Shown here in pieces: positions 1 through 48,961 of a stretch of DNA of 64,000 nucleotides; the first letter of the stretch is position 1; every line of letters starts with the position of its first letter. This DNA comes from Pseudacidovorax sp. Its GTDB lineage: Bacteria > Pseudomonadota > Gammaproteobacteria > Burkholderiales > Burkholderiaceae_C. The DNA lies in assembly GCF_017991995.1 (NCBI RefSeq), contig NZ_JAGOPN010000014.1:62001-126000 (forward strand), in the 5' to 3' direction. A model generated the notes under the pieces. It searched no databases, was not told the origin of the DNA, and saw only the letters and a program-made list of their open reading frames with translations. The translations under genes were made by a program, and so were the position numbers.

Positions 1-551
1 GTGGTGCGCGCGCCGATGGCGCCCCAGGCGATCAGGTCGCCGATGTACTGGGGCGAGATCACGTCCAGGAACTCGCTGCCCGCCGGCAGGCCCAGGCGGT
101 TGATGTCGATGAGCAACTGGCGCGCCATGCGCAGGCCCTCGTCGATGCGGTAGCTCTCGTCCAGGTACGGGTCGTTGATCAGGCCCTTCCAGCCGACGGT
201 GGTGCGCGGCTTCTCGAAGTACACGCGCATCACGATCTCCAGCGAGTCGGCGTACTTTTCGCGCTCGACCTTCAGGCGGCGGGCGTAGTCGAGCGCCGCG
301 GCGGGGTCATGGATGGAACACGGCCCCATCACCACCAGCAGCCGGTCGTCCTGGCCGGCCATGATGTTGTGGATGTTGCGGCGGGTGTCGGTGATCAGCT
401 TCTCGACGGCCGTGCCGTGGATGGGGAAGAAGCGGATGAGGTGTTCCGGAGGGGGCAGCACGTTGATGTCCTTGATGCGTTCGTCGTCGGTCTGGCTTGT
501 TTTCTCGACGGGCGCATACCAGGGATTGGCGGTGGCGTTGCTGCTGTTCAT
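1..551 (-). CDS. aroG: 3-deoxy-7-phosphoheptulonate synthase, class I (N-terminal part, cut by window edge)
   Basis: DAHP synthase condenses phosphoenolpyruvate and erythrose 4-phosphate in the first step of the shikimate pathway. About 183 residues are present. The reading frame shows the family motifs GPCSIHD (about residues 76-82) and EKPRTTVGWKGLINDP (about 113-128), and the window ends near the conserved GAIGARTT segment. The start ATG has AAGGA about 8 nt upstream. It lies behind an aromatic-rich leader peptide and a terminator hairpin, which implies attenuation by aromatic amino acid supply. The sequence resembles the class I AroF/G/H type; which feedback class it belongs to cannot be told from this fragment. 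The 3' part lies outside the window. Confidence 0.95.
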   Translation of the reverse strand, partial: MNSSNATANPWYAPVEKTSQTDDERIKDINVLPPPEHLIRFFPIHGTAVEKLITDTRRNIHNIMAGQDDRLLVVMGPCSIHDPAAALDYARRLKVEREKYADSLEIVMRVYFEKPRTTVGWKGLINDPYLDESYRIDEGLRMARQLLIDINRLGLPAGSEFLDVISPQYIGDLIAWGAIGART

Positions 552-600
552 GGGAACGATCCTTCTTGTGGGTTGATGTGTGACGGAAAACGGGGGGACG

Positions 601-637
601 AAAAAAAACCGCCGGGCTTTTGGCACCGGCGGTTTTT
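601..637 (-). terminator. attenuator-type intrinsic terminator in the aroG leader
   Basis: A perfect 12-bp stem (604-615 with 626-637) encloses a 10-nt loop and is followed on the minus strand by eight U (608-601). It lies between the leader peptide stop and the aroG start, so it can stop transcription before aroG. Its 5' arm contains CCGCCGG (632-626 read on the minus strand). This is complementary to CCGGCGG inside the leader peptide coding sequence (682-676), which gives a possible antiterminator. The hairpin is seen directly; the switching is inferred. It could also act partly as the tldD terminator. Confidence 0.85.
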
Positions 638-656
638 GAGGGTTGGGTTGTTGCGT

Positions 657-731
657 TTACGCGCGCGCCTCTCGTCCGCCGGAGTCCGGGAACCAAAAGT
701 AGGCAAAGTAATAAGCGCGTTGAGCGAACAT
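657..731 (-). CDS. aromatic-rich leader peptide controlling aroG
   Basis: A 24-codon frame encodes MFAQRAYYFAYFWF followed by PDSGGREARA. Seven of the eight codons at positions 7-14 are Tyr, Phe or Trp, an extreme bias that is the hallmark of attenuation leader peptides such as PheL and TrpL. It lies 20 nt before the terminator hairpin and about 105 nt before the DAHP synthase start. Ribosome stalling on the aromatic codons would leave the CCGGCGG of codons 17-19 free to pair with the 5' arm of the terminator. There is no clear Shine-Dalgarno sequence, and the candidate promoter would start transcription almost at the AUG, so the peptide is probably read from a leaderless or near-leaderless end. 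Confidence 0.8.
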   Translation of the reverse strand: MFAQRAYYFAYFWFPDSGGREARA

Positions 732-739
732 GGAGCGCG

Positions 740-767
740 ACTCTAGCACGTGAAAACGGCTTGCCAA
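740..767 (-). promoter_or_regulatory. candidate promoter of the aroG leader transcript
   Basis: On the minus strand TTGGCA (767-762) is followed after 16 nt by TAGAGT (745-740), matching the sigma70 consensus at 5 and 4 of 6 positions. A start 7-8 nt downstream would fall within about 2 nt of the leader peptide AUG. It sits between the tldD stop and the leader peptide, so aroG would have its own transcript. Confidence 0.55.
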
Positions 768-780
768 GCTGTATTTATGT

Positions 781-2241
<1,461 letters not shown>

Positions 2242-48639: not shown

Positions 48640-48961
48640 TTGTGAAGCGCGCCGATACGCCGGATTCTGTGCACCGCGGTTGCCCGCGGTGTGACCGCCA
48701 TCTGTCTGGGCCGCCGGTCACCCGGACGGCTCGATGCTACCTACCCGTGAACTCAGCGGGCCGCCTCGACGTTCACCTACTTGGTATTGCTGCGCGCAGA
48801 GATTGCCCGTTTCACCCGAACTGAATCGGCTCGTCTCTGTTGCTCTGATCCTCACCTCGCGATGGGGAGCCGTTAGCTCCTGCGCTGCCCTGTGCAGTCC
48901 GGACGTTCCTCCAGTGCCGCCTTTCGGCGATTGCACCAGCGGCGGTCTGGCGTGCTTCACG
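48640..48961 (-). ncRNA. rnpB: RNase P RNA (bacterial class A)
   Basis: The catalytic RNA that removes 5' leaders from tRNA precursors. On the minus strand the sequence has the universal GAGGAACGTCCGGACTGCAC and CAGGGC segment near the 5' end, then GGTGAGGATCAGAGCAACAGA. Near the 3' end come GGGTAGGTAGCATC and ACAGAATCCGGCGTATCGGC. The two ends form P1 (GAAGC with GCTTC at 48958-48954 and 48648-48644). A terminator hairpin follows. Exact ends are set by P1 and may differ by a few bases. Confidence 0.95.

Follow-up and report, generated by a model that had tools for sequence, protein, structure and literature searches.

Transcription of aroG in Pseudacidovorax sp. is very probably controlled by ribosome-mediated attenuation. 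The basis for this conclusion is the set of parts in front of the gene, their conservation among relatives, an RNA constraint on one pairing segment (segment 2), a codon constraint on the aromatic run of the leader peptide and the predicted folding. From these data we infer the start site, translation of the leader, ribosome stalling, termination in the cell and the relevant amino acids. Attenuation had been proposed in an earlier note on this DNA, and that reading fits the anatomy of the locus, the comparison with relatives and the constrained folding.

Layout of the aroG leader

The window (the whole 64-kb stretch of Pseudacidovorax sp. DNA that was analysed) carries the leader on its minus strand. 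The elements that the earlier note had placed before aroG were all present, although it had left the strand unstated. The features are as follows:

781..2241, minus strand: upstream gene, 486 aa, ending 49 nt before the leader ATG
740..767, minus strand: predicted sigma-70 promoter, with -35-like TTGGCA at 767-762, a 16-nt spacer and extended -10 TGcTAGAGT at 748-740
731..734, minus strand: putative transcription start, at the leader ATG or 1-3 nt before it, judged from the -10 to ATG spacing
657..731, minus strand: leader peptide gene, 24 codons plus TAA; peptide MFAQRAYYFAYFWFPDSGGREARA
690..713, minus strand: aromatic run, codons 7-14 (Y Y F A Y F W F), 7 of 8 aromatic
686..720, minus strand: segment 1; predicted pairing of 720-715 with 664-659 and of 693-686 with bases of 682-674
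668..682, minus strand: segment 2 (antiterminator 5' half), core CCGGCGG at 682-676 plus GAGG at 671-668, complementary to segment 3
626..641, minus strand: segment 3, CCTC at 641-638 plus CCGCCGG at 632-626; its partner is segment 2 or segment 4
601..637, minus strand: intrinsic terminator 3:4, arms 637-626 (AAAAACCGCCGG) and 615-604, loop 625-616, T8 at 608-601
1..551, minus strand, running past the window edge: aroG, class I DAHP synthase (PF00793 match)

We take aroG to start with the ATG at 551, 49 nt past the T tract, and the product read from it comprises 371 aa (DAHP synthase PF00793 match, 3.2e-94). AroG was the only DAHP synthase found in the Pseudacidovorax genome; the second PF00793 match there is KdsA, judged from its sequence, and no class II DAHP synthase (PF01474) was matched in this genome. 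The upstream gene, which we take to be tldD-like, ends on the same strand so close to the leader ATG that readthrough into the leader is possible.

The 24-codon frame with Tyr, Phe or Trp at seven of codons 7-14 was present at 731-657, as previously noted, and the segment of the peptide gene said to be complementary to the terminator 5' arm (682-676, CCGGCGG) is complementary to 632-626 (CCGCCGG) at every base. The terminator had been described as a perfect 12-bp hairpin with eight U. Both are there, the stem consisting of 12 perfect pairs, 5 of them A-U, but five T of the T8 are used in these A-U pairs, so that a separate tally of twelve pairs plus eight U counts five of them twice.

The aromatic frame stands out from the composition of the window. 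The 64-kb sequence has 309 ATG frames of 15-35 codons, of which the leader alone exceeded 4 aromatic residues in 8, and the maximum in the shuffled window was 4 in 8 (20 shuffles, 4981 frames). The aromatic leader frame is therefore not a chance product.

TTGGCA-16-TAGAGT with extended TG (767-740) was the only promoter-like site found in window positions 500-1000. An extended -10 (TGnTAnnnT, at least 4 of 6 matching) lay at most 30 nt from the leader ATG in 100 of 100 distinct leaders of the comamonad set and in 25 of 68 leaders of other families (not found within 30 nt in the other 43), compared with 55 of 3360 mononucleotide-shuffled upstream stretches. The spacing from the -10 to the ATG is 8 nt in the window, and 6-8 nt in 94 of the 100 comamonad-set leaders and in 21 of the 68 others. 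As transcription normally starts about 7 nt past the -10 hexamer, this spacing indicated that the leader RNA is probably a leaderless or near-leaderless transcript. Inspection by eye found no Shine-Dalgarno sequence before the window's leader ATG.

Conservation and distribution among relatives

The leader was conserved at the aroG loci nearest to that of the window. Among the 200 family genomes, 197 had an aroG match, and the nearest locus among named genomes was from Pseudacidovorax. Of 110 near-relative loci (the best 30 loci of the 200 family genomes and the best 80 of 590), 105, the window's included, were preceded by an ATG frame with at least 4 aromatic residues in ten codons. The terminator 3'-arm motif followed 104 of these 105 leaders, being missing in L053. 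The five loci without the leader were L072, at a contig end, two from Polynucleobacter (L108 and L112) and two from Cupriavidus (L109 and L114); two further Polynucleobacter loci (L096 and L105) have it. Lack of conservation in close relatives had been named beforehand as the observation that would speak against attenuation, and peptide, terminator and complementary segment proved to be conserved together.

The codons of the run indicated what is selected. In 168 distinct leaders (100 of the comamonad set and 68 of other families), TTN codons were TTT 469, TTC 276, TTA 2 and TTG 16, that is, 745 TTT/TTC versus 18 TTA/TTG. At aligned run positions Phe, Tyr and Trp mostly replace one another, Ala, Gly, Ser or His being seen in some cases, and variation in the run is mostly synonymous or aromatic-for-aromatic, while the peptide parts outside the run vary among leaders. 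This pattern suggested selection on the aromatic residues, which implies that the leader is translated.

A covariance model, R1, extended the search to the order. It matched 93 of 300 sampled order genomes at E<=0.01, and for 80 of the 93 the locus check confirmed a neighbouring aroG homologue; these 80 come from 14 of the roughly 50 families represented. Six matches (E 0.002-0.01) lay outside the locus check. Ten weak R1 matches (E 8e-4 to 0.004) had no aroG in the fetched stretch. The 80 include L180 and L197, GTG-start leaders found by eye and absent from the codon, promoter-spacing, core-frame and constrained-fold counts. They also include L193 and L194, which keep the ORF, the antiterminator core and the terminator and hold a single Phe with no Tyr or Trp (MHASPRPLRFCRPRSTAVGRQ; MNLIHPAPTRFSRPPHPAAGDR), a state that suggests a decaying or retuned switch.

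Loci without a model match served as controls. Of 207 genomes without an R1 match, 20 were examined; five had no DAHP synthase at E<=1e-30, and the 19 DAHP-synthase loci of the other 15 had no such leader, the most aromatic frame having four aromatic residues in ten codons. Likewise, no such leader was found at 15 second paralogues of the comamonad set (of 18 listed); a frame with five aromatic residues in ten codons at one second-paralogue locus, L227, looks unrelated.

These data bear on the simplest alternative, namely that an aromatic ORF happens to overlie an ordinary terminator of the upstream gene and that nothing is regulated. The terminator does follow the tldD-like gene, which is on the same strand, and might serve to end the transcript of that gene. 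However, the leader adjoins aroG in 14 families of the order, control loci lack it, and both the promoter spacing and the codon pattern oppose coincidence, which leaves this explanation with next to no probability.

In a wider scan of the class, 43 of the 323 genomes had a match to a second model, R2 (E<=0.001). When 30 further R2 loci were retrieved, 4 proved to precede aroG and 26 were without aroG, indicating that the weak matches of R2 are mostly terminators. With R2, such a leader was located upstream of aroG in four genomes from two families of the class that lie beyond the order (L230-L233; e.g. MNAARASFYFWYYFPKPLAEEGLRSP). In the Pseudacidovorax genome itself, R1 and R2 gave a strong match at the aroG locus only. 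Of the weaker matches in this genome, six were retrieved for comparison; L117 is the antisense strand of the aroG leader's own terminator, and L116, L118, L119 and L257-L259 have no aroG.

On a quick AroG tree of 135 sequences chosen by hand among the fetched loci (97 with a leader or model match and 38 without), in which long branches and many weak forks occur, leader presence required 8 changes, compared with 33.2 with shuffled labels. This finding suggested that the leader has for the most part been passed on together with the gene and that its presence has changed several times.

Several individual loci deserve mention. The record titled Solimonas sp. SE-A11 (L059) holds a comamonad-type AroG, 83% identical, with the leader, and groups with comamonads on the tree. 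Solimonas is a gammaproteobacterium, and either horizontal transfer of the gene plus its switch or contamination would account for this locus. The two Cupriavidus loci lacking the leader (L109 and L114) hold the copies most like the window AroG. In G345, which has two copies, a model match precedes the 62% copy and none was among the matches listed at the 75% copy; by likeness to G345, the Cupriavidus leader may stand before another paralogue. According to the coordinates, two tandem DAHP synthase genes lie behind one leader in G339, G425, G220 and G475. The AroG frame downstream of the leader at G386:C11:791693-792757 has one in-frame TGA, reflecting a pseudogene, a sequencing error or a frame artefact.

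RNA pairing, folding and the proposed switch

Conservation of segment 2 was evaluated at the level of reading frame and of pairing. Its GGCGG-like core follows the aromatic run at a median of 11 nt and, relative to the leader, is found in each of the three reading frames (frame 0, 96; frame 2, 62; frame 1, 12; counted in the 170 of 173 leaders where the script located the core). In some leaders a stop codon comes directly after the core and the RNA sequence continues. Segment 2 is therefore conserved as RNA, and the PGGRE-like tail of the peptide looks like a by-product of this conservation.

The terminated leader RNA, the peptide or both might in addition act in trans, like rnTrpL and peTrpL of Sinorhizobium meliloti. 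What speaks for this is the layout, as the S. meliloti trp attenuation RNA is described as beginning at the trpL ATG (PMC7298713) and the present leader probably begins likewise. Cis pairing and aromatic codons account for the conservation, however, the peptide varies outside the run and segment 2 shifts frame, and we regard an additional trans role as unlikely.

Pairing between segments was compared with permuted partners, with the reservation that kinship among the sequences inflates all permutation tests and pair counts. Own partners fit better than permuted ones for 2:3 (z -6.0, 0 of 200), 3:4 (z -4.9, 0 of 200) and the helix flanking the aromatic run (z -4.0, 0 of 200), and marginally for 1:2 (z -1.5, 17 of 200). 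Folding energies across relatives, set against dinucleotide shuffles, gave a mean z of -4.44 for the terminator, -2.20 for the 2..3 region and -1.22 for the 1:2 region. The fold of the whole window leader had only a moderate advantage over shuffles (z -1.52, with 13 of 200 shuffles at least as good).

Column-wise analysis used two alignments. A1 comprises 103 of 104 sequences (the near-copy L035 left out, the window replacing L005, and L053 being without the terminator motif), and RNAalifold recovered only the terminator from it. A2 comprises 64 rows: 53 from a source set of 59, the window and 10 of the comamonad set. The 59 had been drawn up without eight near-copies or unclear rows and without L139 and L202, which lack the motif; of the 59, A2 omits L168, L181, L190, L192, L193 and L194, among them eroded-run leaders.

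In the counted 1:2 helix (692-688 with 673-669), 92.0% of cells were paired and three pairs showed changes in both partners; one of its five pairs is a C-A mismatch in the window. In the slide comparison, the covariation score was 0.057 in register and higher at slides +1 (0.061) and +3 (0.077), the latter with 5 pairs and 20 cells changed on both sides versus 4 and 7 in register. At any slide at most 61.6% of cells were paired, far under the in-register value of 93.4%. For 2:3, 82.8% of cells were paired and the covariation score was reached by 190 of 500 shuffles, a weak signal because the core GGCGG/CCGCC is nearly invariant. Just outside the core, the first pair was CG in 70 and TA in 21 and was paired in 98 of the 131 sequences (of 156) with exact core anchors, compared with a maximum of 92 in 1000 permutations. 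In both alignments it changes together with the terminator pair (CG 96, TA 29). Pairing and folding alike point to an antiterminator that excludes the terminator and uses a segment inside the ORF.

Constrained folding was used to follow the ribosome along the leader. Folded free through segment 3, the window RNA gave a long 1:2 hairpin (-28.0 kcal/mol) in which segment 3 takes no part. With a ribosome mask whose A site stood at codon 7, 9, 11 or 13 (Trp), the 2:3 antiterminator formed each time (-20.0 to -20.7). Once segment 4 was present, the terminator was the minimum in 5 of 5 constrained folds, among them the stop-codon state, which was folded for the window only with segment 4 present. 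The scheme therefore needs co-transcriptional timing.

The same folds were computed for 151 of the 168 distinct leaders, with the size of the ribosome mask as an assumption. With the RNA cut after segment 3, 2:3 formed in 53 of 151 free leaders. It formed in 138 when the A site held the run's first aromatic codon, in 149 with the ribosome mid-run, in 108 with the ribosome at the last aromatic codon and in 66 when the ribosome stood on the stop codon, segment 4 being absent. When the part before segment 2 was shuffled, 2:3 formed in 471 of 755 folds. The 1:2 hairpin formed in 77 of 151 free leaders versus 209 of 755 with the 5' part shuffled; outside the comamonad set the preference for it was weaker (27 of 60 free, 100 of 300 shuffled).

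The proposed sequence of events is as follows. RNA polymerase would start at or just before the leader ATG, and a ribosome would load on the near-leaderless RNA and translate the 24-codon peptide behind the polymerase. With ample charged Phe-, Tyr- and (here) Trp-tRNA, the ribosome would clear the run and reach the stop codon or leave. Segment 2 would then be covered or paired with segment 1, segment 3 would pair with segment 4, and transcription would stop at 608-601. When an aromatic tRNA is short, the ribosome would stall in the run and break the 1:2 hairpin, and segment 2 would be free to pair with segment 3, so that the terminator is avoided and transcription would run on into aroG.

T-boxes and riboswitches typically have a terminator/antiterminator pair as well, and a different RNA sensor of this kind could control the terminator. 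Rfam includes a T-box family, and no T-box match at gathering score was found at the window locus. Indeed, no Rfam family reached its gathering score there or in 20 related loci, apart from one unrelated tRNA, and the conserved part is an aromatic reading frame, which makes such a sensor highly improbable. The best weak match over the leader, Leu_leader (RF00512; 18.9 bits, far under the gathering value of 50), concerns another amino acid and gene, and was rejected. So was a weak likeness to the Burkholderia sRNA BcKCsr7 (window 603-723, minus strand; 14.8 bits versus gathering 59). Elsewhere in the window, positions 48640-48958 on the minus strand hold an ordinary bacterial RNase P RNA class A (193.9 bits). 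A profile search with 4 leader peptides (E up to 10) matched 0 Pfam and 0 NCBIfam families, short peptides limiting the power of such a search.

Amino acids sensed and comparison with known attenuators

The attenuation reading leaves a choice of amino acids. Among the 100 distinct comamonad-set leaders, Phe occurs in 100, Tyr in 98, Trp in 94 and all three in 93; among the 68 leaders of other families, the counts are Phe 68, Tyr 61, Trp 23 and all three 22. Sensing of the whole aromatic pool is therefore possible in comamonads, judging by codon content. It does not look general, as outside the comamonads the switch looks to be mainly one for Phe and Tyr.

The counts outside the comamonads are consistent with a narrower reading, in which aroG is attenuated and Phe, perhaps with Tyr, is sensed alone, the Trp codon being incidental or modulatory. 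Trp as a sign of a single DAHP synthase was considered and dropped: in 53 genomes of other order families, Trp presence did not follow gene number (with two copies, 10 with Trp and 14 without; with one copy, 10 and 19), and a class II DAHP synthase was present in 1 of 60 genomes. Moreover, the C. glutamicum leader AroR carries Phe-Tyr-Phe yet is reported, in a review, to respond to Phe and not to Tyr (PMC11802643). Against the narrower reading, Trp is kept in 94 of 100 comamonad-set leaders and occupies one aligned position in 86 of 103, and in the window the antiterminator is predicted to form whether the A site of the ribosome is at codon 7, 9, 11 or 13 (Trp). Overall, we put sensing of Phe alone, perhaps with Tyr, at only a little under an even chance.

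A broader proposal, which we hold tentatively and consider rather short of an even prospect, is that the leader is a leaderless three-way sensor. A stall at any Phe, Tyr or Trp codon would open the same antiterminator, and the sole DAHP synthase found in the genome would be induced by shortage of any one of the three. This would take the place of the isozymes and repressors used in E. coli. Within the order, the run would have been retuned to Phe and Tyr only or to these plus Trp, the RNA switch staying unchanged.

The genome may hold a further leader of another kind. Upstream of a trpE-like gene (PF04715; L279, G000:C21), a candidate Trp leader MFIHHVIQTGQGCRGAWPWRKPKTLTA follows a TGGGCTACACT extended -10-like site; no T-run terminator was seen there by eye. 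This is possibly a second, different attenuator.

If the attenuation reading of aroG is true, a good part of the order, whose members are soil, freshwater and plant-associated bacteria, controls entry into the shikimate pathway by a switch that is read by translation and is absent from the three family libraries searched (Rfam, Pfam and NCBIfam). The order would then offer a natural series of leaders with and without Trp in which to study the integration of several amino acids, a probable proteobacterial leaderless leader mRNA beside the S. meliloti example, and a practical control point in strains engineered for aromatics.

The enterobacterial leaders pheL, trpL, hisL and ilv use the same kind of three-segment switch, with codon runs for the pathway's own products, and the ilv leaders combine several amino acids. 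Unlike the window leader, they usually have a Shine-Dalgarno sequence. By analogy, the nearest known precedent is AroR before aroF; Neshat et al. reportedly described its transcript as leaderless in 2014. AroR in C. glutamicum is described as a leader peptide with Phe-Tyr-Phe before the DAHP synthase gene aroF (PMC4046766, PMC11802643, PMC11525245), and Phe limitation raises transcription, Tyr availability being irrelevant, per the review among them (PMC11802643). As described there, it resembles the window leader in its aromatic codons before a DAHP synthase gene and in attenuation, but differs in phylum, in a motif without Trp and in its response to Phe but not Tyr. In S. meliloti, the trpL RNA is described as one that begins with the ATG of the leader ORF (PMC7298713), matching the near-leaderless layout and the terminator before a biosynthetic gene. 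It differs in concerning Trp, in standing before trpE(G) and in its reported trans activities of RNA and peptide (PMC7298713). The review on AroR also names pheL and trpL as known enterobacterial leaders and places the E. coli DAHP synthase genes under TyrR and TrpR (PMC11802643). PMC1173090, which cites Merino's attenuator database, connects attenuators with tyrA in its Table 7.

The earlier note knew of no described case at this gene in this group. That holds for betaproteobacteria, for which the hits listed in searches of open-access full text included no aroG leader, but AroR is a described case in another phylum (PMC4046766, PMC11802643). The attenuation mechanism and its use at a DAHP synthase gene are thus already known, whereas the leader family, its breadth in the order, the usual comamonad Trp codon and the conserved near-leaderless layout appear new within the open-access literature searched.
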